Assembly: GCA_013414795.1 (NCBI GenBank)
Contig: CP058732.1
Location: forward strand, 856,501-920,500
DNA length: 64,000 nucleotides
Source: Candidatus Kapaibacterium sp.
GTDB taxonomy: Bacteria; Bacteroidota; Ignavibacteria; Kapaibacteriales; UBA2268
Direction of reading: 5' to 3'
Under the pieces are notes generated by a model that did not search any database, was not told where the DNA came from, and worked only from the letters and a program-made list of their open reading frames with translations. Position 1 is the first letter of the stretch. The number at the start of each line of letters is the position of its first letter. The position numbers and the translations under genes were made by a program. Below are positions 54,017 through 59,837 of the stretch, piece after piece.

Positions 54017-54334
54017 TCATCCCTCCTTCGATGGATTTTGATTAATACTTTCTTTATTGAAGATAACTGTTTGCTTATTAAGATTGTCCTGAATTTTTTT
54101 ATCGACCTTCACAGAAATGTTTTTCATTGCACTTTTAAGTTTTTCAATTTCAATTTTTGCAGACTGACGGTTTAATTCAATAATCTTATCGTAAACTTCT
54201 TTTCTATGCACTGGAATGGATTTTGGTGCCTCGATACCCAATCGAACTACTCCTCGGCTAAATCCAAGAACAGTTATCTTAACTGTTGAACCTATTGTTA
54301 TCACTTCACCTATCTTCCTTGATAGAACAAGCAT
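54017..54334 (-). CDS. csrA: Carbon storage regulator CsrA, C-terminally extended
   Basis: The first 55 residues are CsrA (MLVLSRKIGE, the RNA-binding GIEAPKSIPVHRKEVY with its Arg). CsrA dimers bind GGA sites in mRNA leaders and block translation. At 105 residues it is clearly longer than the usual 60-75; the added tail is charged (EIEKLKSAMKNISVKVDKK). FliW binds CsrA near its C-terminus in Bacillus, so the tail may matter for that contact. AAAGGA precedes the ATG. It lies 8 bp after fliW. Confidence 0.94.
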   Translation of the reverse strand: MLVLSRKIGEVITIGSTVKITVLGFSRGVVRLGIEAPKSIPVHRKEVYDKIIELNRQSAKIEIEKLKSAMKNISVKVDKKIQDNLNKQTVIFNKESINQNPSKEG

Positions 54335-54342
54335 ATATTCCT

Positions 54343-54780
54343 TTATTCTTGTTTACTTTTCTTTGGAATAACAAAATTAGTTGAATATTTATCGCTTGGA
54401 AGTATTGTCTGCCAACCTCGTTGATTTTCAACATCGAAAACAATTGGGGCTTTCATATTTGCAGTCATTTGCTTATTCTCATCTTCAAGAGTAATTATTA
54501 CCATCAACACCAGTTTTTCTAAATCGAACTCTGGGCCAGGATCGTACATTAAATCGAGGTGCCACGGGCTAAGAAGAGGAAATCCAATTTCTGGCTTTTC
54601 AATTGAGATTAACCATTTGAAAGGAAGTGTCTCTTTGTCTGCAATTAAAACGAACTCGTGCAAGTCTTCGAAACCAAGAATACCGTTTTCAAAATAAAAA
54701 ATATGTTGGGGCTCGATTTCCAAGGTACCAAACTGAAGAGTCTTGATGATTCTTTTTTCTTTTACTTGGTTTTCGTTCAT
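54343..54780 (-). CDS. fliW: Flagellar assembly factor FliW
   Basis: The 145-residue protein matches FliW (FGTLEIEPQHIFYFENGILGFEDLHEF, MVIITLEDENKQMTANMKAPIVFD). FliW sequesters CsrA and is released when it binds flagellin, coupling flagellin translation to export. No flagellin or flagellar gene is in the window, but the pair implies a flagellar system elsewhere or a reused switch. It heads an operon with csrA, a response regulator and hemC. Confidence 0.93.
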   Translation of the reverse strand: MNENQVKEKRIIKTLQFGTLEIEPQHIFYFENGILGFEDLHEFVLIADKETLPFKWLISIEKPEIGFPLLSPWHLDLMYDPGPEFDLEKLVLMVIITLEDENKQMTANMKAPIVFDVENQRGWQTILPSDKYSTNFVIPKKSKQE

Positions 54781-54851
54781 AAATAATAAAAATAAAACAA
54801 TATAAAATTACAAAACTTTTTCAAATTGCAAAATAAAGAAACTAACAATTA

Positions 54852-55505
54852 CTACTTGCAAGGAAGTCCTAATAATTCATTAACACAAGGCCTCTTCTTT
54901 TGTTGTGGATTTGTAGGCTTAAAGCCATATTTGGTACACTCAACAAACCTTTTTAAAGCTTCGCTAGCTTCCTTTTTGCAACCCCTTTCTTCCGAGCCAT
55001 ATCTAATTTCGTAACCAATCATTTGGCAATTATTATCAAATAAGGGTGTACTTATAATTTGCTCCGGTCTCAAATTTGGCGATACTTCAACCGCTGGCAC
55101 GGCTCCTACTTGATATCTTTTAACCGTTTGACATTTCGATGTTAAATACACTTTTGCAGTATCCTTTTGAACCAGTTTAAAAGTAATATCATTAGTCTCT
55201 AAATCTGTGGTAATATCCAGGGTAGCATCTGCTACATCAATATTAAAAATAAACTCGACTATTTCACCTTTTTTAATAGTGAAAGATTGTCCAATTTCAC
55301 TTAAAACTACCCTTTTATTGGGTAAACCTGCAACGGCAGTAGTAACATTTCCATCCTTATTAGCAACCTTAATCGTATCATAAACATATTCAGTAACACG
55401 TACTTTACTGCTTTTATGATACTGATCGGGATGTAGAACAAAATCAATAAATTTACATCCACTTAAGGTTAAAACGAATAAGGCAATGATAAGAATTTTT
55501 TTCAT
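54852..55505 (-). CDS. Cysteine-rich lipoprotein of unknown function
   Basis: The 217-residue protein has a clear lipoprotein signal (LTLSGCKF, Cys at 17). The middle (about 65-125) looks beta-rich and sandwich-like, and the last 75 residues contain six further cysteines, which may form disulfides outside the inner membrane. I recognise no family. It starts 14 bp after the gene at 55520, so it is the third member of an unknown three-gene operon. Confidence 0.8.
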   Translation of the reverse strand: MKKILIIALFVLTLSGCKFIDFVLHPDQYHKSSKVRVTEYVYDTIKVANKDGNVTTAVAGLPNKRVVLSEIGQSFTIKKGEIVEFIFNIDVADATLDITTDLETNDITFKLVQKDTAKVYLTSKCQTVKRYQVGAVPAVEVSPNLRPEQIISTPLFDNNCQMIGYEIRYGSEERGCKKEASEALKRFVECTKYGFKPTNPQQKKRPCVNELLGLPCK

Positions 55506-55519
55506 AGCGATTTAAATTG

Positions 55520-56686
55520 TTAATTTAATACATAATTGGTGCTGACATTTATTTTATAATATTTTTTCAAGATTGGGAAAACATTTCTTTCAAATTGACC
55601 GGGTTTATCAACTTTAGGTAAGTAATGATACCAAAATAAATTTCTGATTTTCGAAAAACTATCCCACAGATCTTTCTTTAAAATTTTTTCGTTTTGAGTT
55701 TCGGGGAATTTGCCAACGAACACCAAATGCTTGTAAACGGTATCGGGCAATTTAGAAATCTGATGCAAAGCCTGTTTAAATAAAAAGTTGAGGGAAGTCC
55801 AGTTGCATTTTGTCATAGCAGAAGCAGTGTTGAAAAACTCTGTGCTATCCATTCCACGACTAAGGTAGAGCAATGTAACCCCGTTCTTCGGTCCGTCGTT
55901 CCAAAAAGTAACAAAAAAGCGCGAACTTATTTGTTTCGTCAAAAATTCTAGAACTTCTTTTGAGTTTGGGGATGTAAATTTATCAAAGAAAATACAGAAA
56001 ACGTTGGGCAAGTCCAAGGGCACACATTTCCTCTCACTCTCTAAATCTACATCCAACCTTTTTAAATCGAACTTATTCGTTGCAATAAGAGAATCTTGAA
56101 TTTCTTTTTCAACTTTTTTCCTGGCATCGACCAATGCAGAAATTAGTTTAATTGGTTGACCATTTTTTCTCTTGATTGAAAGTTCTTTAATTGAATTAAT
56201 CAAAGTTTTCTTTGATTCATAATCATAGCATTCGGGAAAAGTTCCCGTTATCACATAAAAAGTGTTTTCAGGATTTTTGTCTGATAATGCATCAGACAAA
56301 AATTTAATAACCAGGTCATTAATTTTCTGATTTTCTAACGAAATTAAAACAGTATCCCGTATGGAACGATTAATATAATCTTTAATCCTAAATTTCCACT
56401 TTTGGATATCTTCGCCTGGCCTTATTTTTAACTCATAATCAGGTTTAAAAATACGAGTTGTTGTATAATAGGAAAAATTTAACTGAGTTGGTTTATCCTT
56501 TGCCAGTTCTTGCGCCAGTTTTTCCGAGACATTGTTTGCAATGGTATCAATTGTTATGTAATCATTATTCAAGATCAATATCTTAACATTGTAGACAGGG
56601 GGCTTTGTTTCAACAAACAAATAGATTATTCCCCCGATAATTATTAGGATTATGATAACTAAAATGGTAACTTTAGTTTTGTCCAT
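55520..56686 (-). CDS. Membrane-anchored protein with two VWA-like halves, unknown function
   Basis: The 388-residue protein has one N-terminal membrane helix (about 7-26) and a large outside domain. Its two halves show a similar order of elements: a strand (VKILILNND / VFCIFFDKF), a helix, another strand, a helix, and a strand ending in a shared pattern (FYVITGTFPE / LVFVGKFPE). This resembles tandem von Willebrand A-like folds, but the metal-binding DxSxS is not intact in either half (DKFTS in the second). The likeness is my inference. It overlaps the upstream gene by 14 bp. Confidence 0.75.
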   Translation of the reverse strand: MDKTKVTILVIIILIIIGGIIYLFVETKPPVYNVKILILNNDYITIDTIANNVSEKLAQELAKDKPTQLNFSYYTTTRIFKPDYELKIRPGEDIQKWKFRIKDYINRSIRDTVLISLENQKINDLVIKFLSDALSDKNPENTFYVITGTFPECYDYESKKTLINSIKELSIKRKNGQPIKLISALVDARKKVEKEIQDSLIATNKFDLKRLDVDLESERKCVPLDLPNVFCIFFDKFTSPNSKEVLEFLTKQISSRFFVTFWNDGPKNGVTLLYLSRGMDSTEFFNTASAMTKCNWTSLNFLFKQALHQISKLPDTVYKHLVFVGKFPETQNEKILKKDLWDSFSKIRNLFWYHYLPKVDKPGQFERNVFPILKKYYKINVSTNYVLN

Positions 56687-57452
56687 TTTTTACCTCATTT
56701 TTTTCAAAAACCTTGTAATAGATATCCCATAGTTCTTCTCTGCTTAAAATGTCGTTGAATTGATCTTTCGCAATTTCCTTTAGGCTATTGAATGCTTTAC
56801 GCATTTTAAACTTGACGCTTTCGGGATTTACAAGCAAAAGTTGGTAAATTCCATAATAGCCTAATCCCAGAATGTACCAAAGCCCAAAACCATTGGTCGA
56901 TAAAATGGAATATACAATTATTACAAATATTACTTGTGGTCCAATTATCTTTATGGAATCGATAGTAGAAAGTGTGTAAATTTCTTGGGAGCTTACCGGA
57001 TCAATTTCTGTATACTTGTTCACAACTAAGATTATAAAAAGAATGATTTTTACGATACCAAGAAGAATTAAAATTGGAATTCCGCTTTTTCTGTGCTTTT
57101 CTTTTTTGCTAGAATCTGGGCCAGCAAAACCACCACTTGCGAATATTGCTAAAAAACCATCTAAAACGCTAAAAAGTAACGCTAAAAATTCTTTTGGTAC
57201 ACGAATTATGTCTGAAAGATACTCCAAACTGCGGTGGGAGACCCAATAGTCGAAAATTAAAACCAAAAGACACAAAATTCCACCAACAACATAGCGTCCA
57301 GATTTTTCGTGAACGAACAGCTCCAAAAAATCCTGCTTTTTCTTGTTGAATTTTTCGAAACTCTTTTGGGCTCGTTCAAAGTCTTCGTTTAATTTTCTTA
57401 TGGTAGAAACTTTTTCTTTGATATTAGCTTCAAGTGTTTTACTTGATTCCAT
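56673..57452 (-). CDS. Polytopic membrane protein with N-terminal coiled coil, unknown function
   Basis: The 259-residue protein starts with a charged helical region likely to form a coiled coil (about 5-48). About five membrane helices follow (near 54-73, 88-109, 124-144, 167-184 and 186-207), with a basic loop (PDSSKKEKHRKSG) after the second. A charged helical C-terminus ends it. I do not recognise the family. It is the first gene of the three-gene operon; 67 bp of A/T-rich sequence separates it from the preceding ftcD stop. Confidence 0.78.
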   Translation of the reverse strand: MESSKTLEANIKEKVSTIRKLNEDFERAQKSFEKFNKKKQDFLELFVHEKSGRYVVGGILCLLVLIFDYWVSHRSLEYLSDIIRVPKEFLALLFSVLDGFLAIFASGGFAGPDSSKKEKHRKSGIPILILLGIVKIILFIILVVNKYTEIDPVSSQEIYTLSTIDSIKIIGPQVIFVIIVYSILSTNGFGLWYILGLGYYGIYQLLLVNPESVKFKMRKAFNSLKEIAKDQFNDILSREELWDIYYKVFEKNEVKNGQN

Positions 57453-57519
57453 AGATGTTAATGTTTTATTAAAAAGGCAAAAATAATTAAAAAAAATTAA
57501 AAACCAAATTTATTTTTAT

Positions 57520-59142
57520 TTATTTCCTATTTGAAATTATTTCCAATATTTCTTCGAGATATTCTTTTGATTTTTTTACTATATCTTCGGCTTCGGCTTG
57601 TATCTTTGTTTTGAACTCCTCGTCCTCAATTGTTGGTAAATTAATAAGCACATTTCTGTATGCCCCCCAAATGCCAGTTTCCAATGCTTTGGCTCCTACT
57701 TCCACATCGGATTTCGAGGCGATATTTCCAATTCGTGCCACTTCCCTCAATGGCTCCCAACATTCAAATGACAATCGCATTGTAGTCAACGGAACAAGAA
57801 TTGCTTTCTTCAATCCTTCTTGCATTGCTCTATGTCGGAATTCCATCTCTTCTGGCGTATTCTTTGGTAAACGCAACGCGTCCATATATTCGTTGAAAGC
57901 ATTCGCATCTGCATCTATCATCGAAATCAATTCACGGGTTTTGTAGTATAATGGCGGAATTACCTTTCGCAACTCATCCGTCAAATGTTCAAACTTTCGT
58001 ACTCCATATGTCAACTGTGCAACCATACAACCCAAAGCAGTACCGATTGCGGCAATTGCAGCCGAGGCGGAACCCCCCCCAGGAGCAGGCGTTCTTGCTG
58101 AAATTTTAAGAATAAAGTCTCGAACTGTGCTTTGGGCAAGCGGTTCGTTGGGTTCTTCCTCAATCATATACTCGATAATTTTTTTCTTGGGGTTAAACTT
58201 AGTAATCGAGTTTAAACCGAGCCTATCAATCACCAATTTAACTTTTTGGTCCTCATCCAAAATGAAAAGGTCTTCTTTTTGAATGTAATACTCCGCTGCC
58301 ATTAATATTGCTTCCAAAGGAATTAATCCAACAAGTTCGGAGCCTGCAACACCGACCCGCAATTCTTGTGCTTGCTTTTTAATCTCCTCGAAAACAATGT
58401 GCGGCGGCGTTACTTTGTAATTGGTTAGATTAATTGAAACTTGTGCCATATTGTATTCATCGACCCACCAACCAATTGCTTTAACTTCTTTGAAAAGCCC
58501 GGGTTGGTCTGGTCCGCGGCCAGCCTCCCGAATATTTAAAGCAATCCGATGGGCTTGTTCTTTTGTTCCCAATATGTTGACATTGTAAGCAATGAGAAAG
58601 AATCTTGCACCGGTAACAGTTGCCCCCCATTCTGGGACAAAACGAGCCGGACCAAAGTCTGGCTTCCATTCTGGTTGCTTGATTTTCTCCGCTAGTCCTT
58701 CGTATTCGCCTTCACGAATTTGAGGAAGCCTTTTCCTATAATCAAGTGGTTGTGCATATTCATAAAGATAAACTGGTACATCAAGTTCCTCGGCAAGTCG
58801 TCGACCAAATTCTTTGGCACATTCAACACATTCTTCCATCGTAACATTTGCCACGGGGACAAAGGGACAAACATCGAGCGCCCCAATTCGCGGGTGTTCG
58901 CCCTTATGTTTTCGCATATCAATCATTTTACGGGCAACTCTTGCTGCATTCAAAGCCCCTTCGACGACTGCCTTAGGTTCACCAACGAAAGTATAAACTG
59001 TCCTGTTCGTAGACTTTCCCGGATCAACATCAAGCAAAGTGCATCCGGGTGTCGTTTTGATTGCCTCTGCTATGGCATTAATGATTTCTTCATTGCGACC
59101 TTCGGAAAAATTAGGAACACATTCTACAATCTTCTTTTTCAT
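57520..59142 (-). CDS. ftcD: Bifunctional glutamate formimidoyltransferase / formimidoyl-THF cyclodeaminase
   Basis: The 540-residue protein combines two enzymes. Residues about 1-330 are the formiminotransferase (CVPNFSEGRN, catalytic-type His in KHKGEHPRIGALD, GARFFLIAYNVN). Residues about 350-540 are the cyclodeaminase (TPAPGGGSASAAIAAIGTALG). It moves the formimino group from histidine breakdown to tetrahydrofolate and forms methenyl-THF. The length and order equal the animal fusion; many bacteria encode the parts separately. Other hut genes are absent here. The ATG at 59140-59142 gives the canonical N-terminus. Confidence 0.94.
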   Translation of the reverse strand: MKKKIVECVPNFSEGRNEEIINAIAEAIKTTPGCTLLDVDPGKSTNRTVYTFVGEPKAVVEGALNAARVARKMIDMRKHKGEHPRIGALDVCPFVPVANVTMEECVECAKEFGRRLAEELDVPVYLYEYAQPLDYRKRLPQIREGEYEGLAEKIKQPEWKPDFGPARFVPEWGATVTGARFFLIAYNVNILGTKEQAHRIALNIREAGRGPDQPGLFKEVKAIGWWVDEYNMAQVSINLTNYKVTPPHIVFEEIKKQAQELRVGVAGSELVGLIPLEAILMAAEYYIQKEDLFILDEDQKVKLVIDRLGLNSITKFNPKKKIIEYMIEEEPNEPLAQSTVRDFILKISARTPAPGGGSASAAIAAIGTALGCMVAQLTYGVRKFEHLTDELRKVIPPLYYKTRELISMIDADANAFNEYMDALRLPKNTPEEMEFRHRAMQEGLKKAILVPLTTMRLSFECWEPLREVARIGNIASKSDVEVGAKALETGIWGAYRNVLINLPTIEDEEFKTKIQAEAEDIVKKSKEYLEEILEIISNRK

Positions 59143-59167: not shown

Positions 59168-59710
59168 TTACCTAAATAAAACAATTCGAGTTACATTTGG
59201 AATTGTGAAGATATATCTTCTCCCAACCCAAAACATCACAGAATGGACTGGGTTGTGAATGTCAATATCGAGATTTTCGCCTTTGATTGTAATTTTTATT
59301 GGATTTAGATACTTGTAACTTGTATAAACTTCGCTGAGTTCAATTTTTTTCGTTTTTTTGCTTTCGGAAATTCTCAATGTATCTTTCCATTGATAATGTT
59401 TCTTTTGGACTAACCAAATGAAATTCGTGTCGTCGAAATTGGTTTGTTCGTAACAAAGCGTATCTTCATTATAAAATTGAATTTTTTTGAATGAATTTTT
59501 GTTCGTATCGAAGATTTTCGATATTGACTCGATATCGTAACCAACATAATAATTGCTTTTGGTTTTCTTTCCGCTTTTTAAGGTAAGTTGGTAATAGTTC
59601 AACTCCTCGGAAAATTTAGCGGGTAATTTTTTGACATTGATGGTATCTACTTGCTGCGAAAGCAACAAGGTTGGCAATAGGATTCCAATAAACAAAACAA
59701 AAAGTCTCAT
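59168..59710 (-). CDS. Exported protein of unknown function
   Basis: From the ATG at 59708-59710 the protein has 180 residues with a signal peptide (cleavage likely after LLLSQQ). The remainder is rich in Lys, aromatic and Asn residues and appears to be all beta strands. No family is recognised. It precedes ftcD by 25 bp in the same direction and could be cotranscribed, though a functional link is not apparent. Confidence 0.7.
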   Translation of the reverse strand: MRLFVLFIGILLPTLLLSQQVDTINVKKLPAKFSEELNYYQLTLKSGKKTKSNYYVGYDIESISKIFDTNKNSFKKIQFYNEDTLCYEQTNFDDTNFIWLVQKKHYQWKDTLRISESKKTKKIELSEVYTSYKYLNPIKITIKGENLDIDIHNPVHSVMFWVGRRYIFTIPNVTRIVLFR

Positions 59711-59837
59711 TGCAAAAAAAAGCAAAATTAATAAAAGTTTGAAGAGAAAAGGGAAATTAATTCAAATAGTTTGTTGGCGAAGCCAAAAATGTACTTAACC
59801 AATGAAGAAGGATATTATTTATTGGAATTCAATTTTG

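Follow-up and report, generated by a model that had tools for sequence, protein, structure and literature searches.

A three-gene cassette of Candidatus Kapaibacterium that appears to encode an undescribed trans-envelope device

What kind of system is encoded by three adjoining genes that no searched model library names, and do their products act together across the cell envelope? The genes lie in the window, the whole 64,000-nucleotide stretch of DNA analysed here, in a host genome of 2.66 Mb (Table 1). The initial annotation had described a three-gene unit with a 14-bp overlap between genes 1 and 2 and a 14-bp gap between genes 2 and 3, whose products would occupy three locations, and both points are borne out: the open reading frames (ORFs) are confirmed, all on the minus strand, the unit recurs in relatives, and its products carry transmembrane (TM) spans (gene 1), a TM anchor (gene 2) and a lipobox (gene 3). 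The 14/14 spacing is no signature in itself because it is not conserved across relatives; for the longest ORFs of seven genomes, the membrane and anchored-protein genes lie -29 to +9 nt apart and the anchored-protein and lipoprotein genes -59 to +14 nt apart. The further claim that none of the three belongs to a known family stands for names but not for folds. No searched library model names any of them: Pfam, NCBIfam, PADLOC and PHROGs gave a lipoprotein-signal match and otherwise chance-level rows, and PDB sequence profiles gave no row for gene 2 and chance-level rows alone for genes 1 and 3. Sensitive profile and structure searches likewise yielded neither a family name nor a fold match for the lipoprotein, but gene 2 is recognisable by its predicted structure as a tandem VWA protein. 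Overall, the trio appears to be an undescribed trans-envelope device linking the outer cell layers to the interior, and an envelope-spanning complex of the three products can reasonably be inferred from their predicted locations.

Nothing exceeds the Rfam gathering threshold in 54300-57700, promoter- and terminator-like sites are in no excess over shuffles, and the GC content of the cassette (33.0% versus 37.8% for the window) is suggestive only, as 13 of 307 overlapping 2.6-kb windows are equally low. Seven flanking genes were scanned, namely FTCD, fliW, csrA, a response regulator, hemC, a TonB receptor and one unknown. Next to FTCD, window positions 59168-59725 hold a 185-aa gene without a Pfam match over cut-off that shows 41-47% identity in three other genomes (G001, G002 and G004).

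Table 1. Positions of the trio, its junctions and the parts of gene 2 within the window
Feature	Coordinates	Strand	Basis
Gene 1: ~4-TM inner-membrane protein, 259 aa	56673..57452	-	ORF; order census
Gene 2: TM-anchored tandem-VWA protein, 388 aa	55520..56686	-	AF2, Foldseek/VIA, MIDAS check
Gene 2, predicted TM (aa 3-25)	56612-56680	-	AF2 model
Gene 2, predicted VWA domain 1 (aa 31-210)	56057-56596	-	AF2 model, Foldseek/VIA
Gene 2, predicted VWA domain 2 (aa 228-383)	55538-56005	-	AF2 model, Foldseek/VIA
Gene 3: lipoprotein, 217 aa, C17 anchor	54852..55505	-	Lipobox, structure model, Cys covariation
Cassette/FTCD junction	57453..57519	.	FTCD-fliW adjacent without trio in two same-genus genomes
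Cassette/fliW junction	54781..54851	.	FTCD-fliW adjacent without trio in two same-genus genomes

The fold of gene 2 emerges from an AlphaFold2 model built on seven rows (pLDDT 83.8, pTM 0.58), which comprises one TM helix and two domains, both halves showing the VWA element order b1-a1-b2-b3-a2-a3-b4-a4-b5-a5-b6. Leading Foldseek rows were mainly VWA/I-domains, five of them at E <=0.001 and the best at 1.1e-5, with low whole-chain TM scores, while VIA-align reached a best Z of 9.4 over 153 aa for domain 2, domain 1 being barely sampled there. A profile comparison of the two domains with one another also gives a match (E 1e-5 to 4e-5), at a score that none of 60 shuffles reached. The metal site of such domains (MIDAS: DxSxS, T, D) is absent from both domains in all eight aligned sequences, and strand 4 mostly has a G-x-F/M-P ending in its place, unlike the canonical VWA neighbour of the trio in G021, which shows DYSGS. 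Neither gene 2 of the window nor seven members of its alignment (A4) are matched by a Pfam VWA model. By predicted structure, therefore, gene 2 is two tandem VWA folds without a metal site.

Gene 3 carries the lipobox L-S-G-C17 (PF08139, 20.1 bits versus a cut-off of 20) and six cysteines beyond C17. Its model, of middling confidence (pLDDT 68), is beta-rich over aa 64-169 with a helix at aa 177-191; Foldseek and VIA yield no match to a solved fold, a result that does not by itself show a new one. The family occupies 58 places in 43 of the 123 genomes of the order. C125 and C176 are both present in 57 places and both missing from the remaining one, and a hairpin cysteine (at 160, shifted to 156 at five of the f2 loci) accompanies a helix cysteine in 33 places, with neither present in 25 and a lone one in none. 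This covariation covers all 58 places, and its Fisher p is too small since shared ancestry is ignored. Being perfect across the family, it implies two disulfides, which we infer to be C125-C176 and C160-C190. Outside the order, profile matches are partial and weak, in seven genomes of a 395-genome sample of the phylum (best E 5.2e-6). The eight named records that hold the lipoprotein are metagenome-assembled genomes. A mobile origin of the trio was considered and set aside, as a search of phage and plasmid records with the window lipoprotein gave no match at E 1e-5. Tandem lipoprotein copies stand behind one single-domain anchored protein at L084 and L085.

Gene 1 has hydrophobic spans at aa 53-73, 87-110, 121-150 and 161-195, preceded by about 50 mostly charged residues, in which a coiled coil, as proposed in the initial annotation, is plausible when the sequence is read by eye. 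D68, D98 and K135, in or near TM segments, are invariant among seven aligned sequences, and the whole unit is duplicated inside a single protein in G038 and G055. The gene was found in 8 of the 123 genomes of the order (probably Kapabacteriales); in the 395-genome phylum sample it occurs in four genomes, every one within the order, and no relative outside the order was found. DUF4407 was considered and rejected as a relative, its Pfam model matching the same genome elsewhere, below cut-off, and not gene 1. The canonical VWA neighbour in G021 is part of a lipoprotein-like gene (L079:3876-4937; PF13519, 7.8e-11) whose end lies 13 nt ahead of the membrane gene; no such gene was seen ahead of the other trios read.

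Whether the three genes depend on one another is best judged from their distribution. Relatives of genes 2 and 3 adjoin where the identity of gene 2 to the window copy is 17-64%, and gene 1 precedes them in most cases; because this adjacency persists over such divergence, the arrangement reflects more than chance. An anchored-protein gene comes after each of the eight membrane genes, and the lipoprotein stands directly next in seven; in the eighth (G057), it sits on a second contig that shares a 164-bp overlap at 97.6%. Seven of these eight anchored proteins are VWA-related, G057 again being the exception. The tandem VWA gene itself is present in 8 of 54 family genomes and has the lipoprotein next to it in every one, with a membrane gene in five; G016 and G018 have a VWA gene that is incomplete at or near a contig start, and G061 has the tandem VWA protein and lipoprotein without a membrane gene. 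Within the trio, the membrane gene is thus the dependent member. The lipoprotein ranges more widely. When its 58 places are classed by reading neighbour genes, an anchored partner precedes the lipoprotein in 33, made up of 8 trios, 8 HEPN-type loci, 3 loci with the tandem VWA protein alone, 1 sigma-linked locus and 13 in which the partner is one smaller anchored protein; at the other 25, none is in sight. These 25 comprise 7 fusions with a DUF4349-like region in front of the lipoprotein domain (the two scanned exceed the Pfam cut-off) and 1 beside a similar neighbour, 9 beside putative OmpA-like proteins (L043 confirmed with PF00691 at 1.1e-8, three others scanned without a match), 3 beside a gene read as DNA polymerase I and 5 others. 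The interdependence of the three genes therefore holds from the side of the membrane gene, which in all eight cases accompanies both partners, but not from that of the lipoprotein. Several of the fused forms (L022-L028) adjoin a long repeat protein without clear family. The paralogues directly after the gene read as DNA polymerase I (L138, L146 and L147, in three f9 genomes) are two-cysteine forms.

The modules found beside the lipoprotein in relatives differ in kind. At eight loci (seven f2 genomes and G057), a protein consisting of a HEPN-like domain, a TM helix and a periplasmic part is encoded directly before the lipoprotein, with a gap of -19 to +12 nt. All eight carry RNxxxH, in agreement with the RX4-6H catalytic motif, and Pfam HEPN models match four of the seven proteins scanned, with 22.1, 19.8, 19.1 and 15.0 bits, all below gathering (27.5 for the best); no HEPN row was obtained from Pfam for the window trio. 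In G057, HEPN-type and membrane-type operons probably stand head to head at one locus. The order in G027 is sigma factor (sigma-70 region 2, PF04542, 29.4 bits with a cut-off of 24), TM protein and lipoprotein; this TM protein has no anti-sigma Pfam row, and no relative of it was found in any other of the 123 genomes. The sigma-linked form was found in 1 of 123. Among single-domain partners, that of L088 bears four N-terminal cysteines with zinc-ribbon-like spacing, under all Pfam cut-offs. Signalling genes also occur nearby: a cyclase gene lies beside L067 and another upstream of L085, cheZ-cheA precede L089, and a CheA-like gene, read from sequence, precedes the anchored partner in G103. CheA-type genes stand directly before the anchored-protein gene at L089 and L091 in two f3 genomes, and RtcR/CARF-type genes without an AAA+ match are divergent to the HEPN-type operon at L140, L142, L143, L145 and L148.

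The periplasmic parts of these partners show a likeness to VWA domain 2 that is weak but exceeds shuffled controls. The domain 2 profile matches those of seven HEPN-type proteins as a set (G057 left out) at E 2.3e-4, and the single-domain set (7 loci), G044 and the sigma-linked G027 at E 0.002-0.003, with 0 of 60 shuffles reaching the score in each case. HHalign probabilities for domain 2 with the four sets are 24, 6, 2 and 1% under settings that differ from those of the shuffle test, and the sets show no match among themselves in HHalign. Domain 1 matches the single-domain set (E 0.01, 0/60 shuffles) and fails with the HEPN-type set (E 0.2, 1/60), the sigma-linked G027 (14/60) and G044 (4/60). 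Neither profile matches the anchored partners of G053 and G037 (9/60 shuffles reach the score for domain 2 and 26/60 for domain 1), that of G103 (3/40 and 33/40) or the protein beside the membrane gene in G057 (16/40 and 24/40). Control comparisons with the alignments of the lipoprotein and of the membrane protein gave E values no better than 0.29. A VWA relation is thus supported for 28 of the 33 partners, counting the HEPN-type and single-domain proteins as sets; it fails for four (G053, G037, G103 and the G057 trio), with the HEPN-type protein of G057 left out.

The genomic position of the trio raises the question of a link to its flagellar neighbours. A motility accessory tied to fliW-csrA and the neighbouring response regulator would explain why fliW is immediately preceded by the cassette, in the same orientation, in both the window and G001, where the site is the same, and FliMN_C genes are present in the genome. 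However, in two genomes of the same genus, G002 and G004, the trio is missing between FTCD and fliW, which adjoin at a distance of about 115 and 92 nt, the trio of G002 sits on a different contig, and G011, whose genome is 89% complete, has the trio but yields no match to FliMN_C; in G003, a different gene lies upstream of fliW. The sites lacking the trio, together with its location elsewhere in G002, indicate that the fliW-csrA neighbours are incidental, and the flagellar link, largely ruled out by these same-genus sites, is highly improbable. The trio behaves instead as a cassette whose three genes enter, leave or change place together.

Based on these observations, we tentatively favour a reading, quite possibly correct though far from secure, in which the trio is a lineage-specific trans-envelope sensor/transducer with exchangeable outputs. 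The disulfide-stabilised lipoprotein, probably located in the outer membrane, would read the state of the envelope or a ligand and physically contact the MIDAS-less VWA domains, which a TM helix holds at the inner membrane. Their protein would then relay the change inwards to an output. In the window, this output would be the multi-TM protein, acting as a gated channel or as an adaptor to some target in the cytoplasm. Relatives have a comparable pair that is joined to a HEPN RNase-like domain or stands beside a sigma factor. The reading draws on the co-occurrence of the genes, the VWA fold predicted for gene 2, the cysteine covariation, the differing modules and signalling genes next to the lipoprotein, and the FTCD-fliW sites that lack the trio. 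Speaking against it are the weak profile links between the periplasmic parts, the partners that match neither VWA profile, the HEPN matches below gathering, the single sigma-linked locus, the G061 pair that lacks a membrane gene, the lipoprotein places with no partner in sight, and the middling lipoprotein model with no match to a solved fold.

The main rival reading is an anti-phage or abortive-infection module, in which the outer parts would sense phage attachment or injection and a HEPN RNase or a membrane-damaging or depolarising protein would arrest the cell. The RNxxxH of all eight HEPN-type proteins is like the RX4H motif of anti-phage HEPN RNases (PMC11087260), and the patchy, cassette-like distribution would suit defence. 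Neighbouring genes point the same way: an RtcR-domain gene over the Pfam cut-off is divergent to the HEPN-type operon in five of eight loci (G093, G095, G096, G098 and G099), and the operon is followed by Mrr and DUF4268/PDC-S11 genes in L144 (G090) and by a NERD-UvrD gene in L142 (G096). In the remaining loci, G045 has no divergent RtcR gene, the G090 contig starts at the operon, and the divergent gene of G057 is the membrane gene. RtcR-controlled genes are reported to respond to damaged tRNAs (PMC7790460). These hints do not extend to the window, where no defence or RtcR-type neighbour occurs among the seven flanking genes scanned. The trios of the window and G002 sit among genes read as housekeeping, and the window lipoprotein lacks phage or plasmid matches. 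Moreover, PADLOC returned one chance-level row for the trio (E 0.006) and, for the four HEPN-type proteins scanned, a single weak match with a CARF-HEPN model (E 0.003). A defence role is accordingly rather unlikely, albeit one to be taken seriously.

A slightly less probable and overall unlikely alternative is a constitutive envelope machine for tethering, assembly or transport that involves no signalling, with the VWA tandem and lipoprotein bridging the periplasm and the membrane protein anchoring or energising them. VWA domains commonly mediate protein contacts, the invariant D68, D98 and K135 would suit an energised or transport role, and the lipoprotein paralogue beside an OmpA-domain gene (L043) hints at outer-membrane or peptidoglycan work. 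However, a purely structural role is hard to reconcile with the RNase-like domain and the sigma factor that relatives carry next to the lipoprotein, and the presence of the membrane gene in only 8 of 123 genomes also speaks against it.

The sensor/transducer reading, if true, would add a route along which bacteria couple the state of their envelope to the cleavage of RNA, to transcription or to an effector in the membrane, in a lineage represented here almost entirely by metagenome assemblies. A broader version, which we regard as doubtful, would make the trio part of an undescribed class of trans-envelope conflict or stress devices, in which a disulfide-bonded lipoprotein and MIDAS-less periplasmic VWA-type domains together make up the sensor and the output (HEPN RNase, sigma factor or multi-TM effector) is swapped between genomes, the devices moving as cassettes within one order. 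One sensor with exchangeable outputs would resemble immune-system logic, and the sensor could serve as bait for further effectors; it would also provide a starting point for studying VWA domains that function despite lacking a metal site. Literature searches found no publication naming both Kapabacteria and von Willebrand, and no such system turned up in those searches.

Several known systems share parts of this design. Zorya and Kiwa are multi-gene, envelope-associated defence systems with membrane proteins, a description that also suits the trio, whereas none of its three proteins has a PADLOC match to either. Bat-type proteins are TM-anchored VWA domains facing the periplasm, and gene 2 likewise encodes a TM-anchored VWA protein predicted to be periplasmic; it differs in lacking the MIDAS in all eight aligned sequences and in that none of its seven scanned neighbours is an AAA+ gene. 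In the Rcs envelope stress pathway, the lipoprotein sensor RcsF signals to the periplasmic domain of the inner-membrane protein IgaA (PMC9907809). Signalling from a lipoprotein to the periplasmic domain of an inner-membrane protein is what would be analogous in the trio, which differs in having no RcsF, IgaA or phosphorelay match in Pfam or NCBIfam, in its VWA-type partner and in its outputs. MoxR-vWA ternary conflict systems are centred on a MoxR ATPase and couple VWA domains, most of which keep two aspartates, to varied effectors (PMC7159879). Such coupling may be shared by the trio, although its VWA domains are predicted to be periplasmic and lack the MIDAS, and no ATPase lies among the seven neighbours scanned. 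HEPN RNase defence proteins such as Tha are approached by relatives of the trio through the likeness of RNxxxH to their RX4H motif (PMC11087260). The window variant has no HEPN match, and in its relatives, in contrast to those proteins, a TM helix connects the HEPN-like part with a domain in the periplasm and a lipoprotein forms the other half of the pair.
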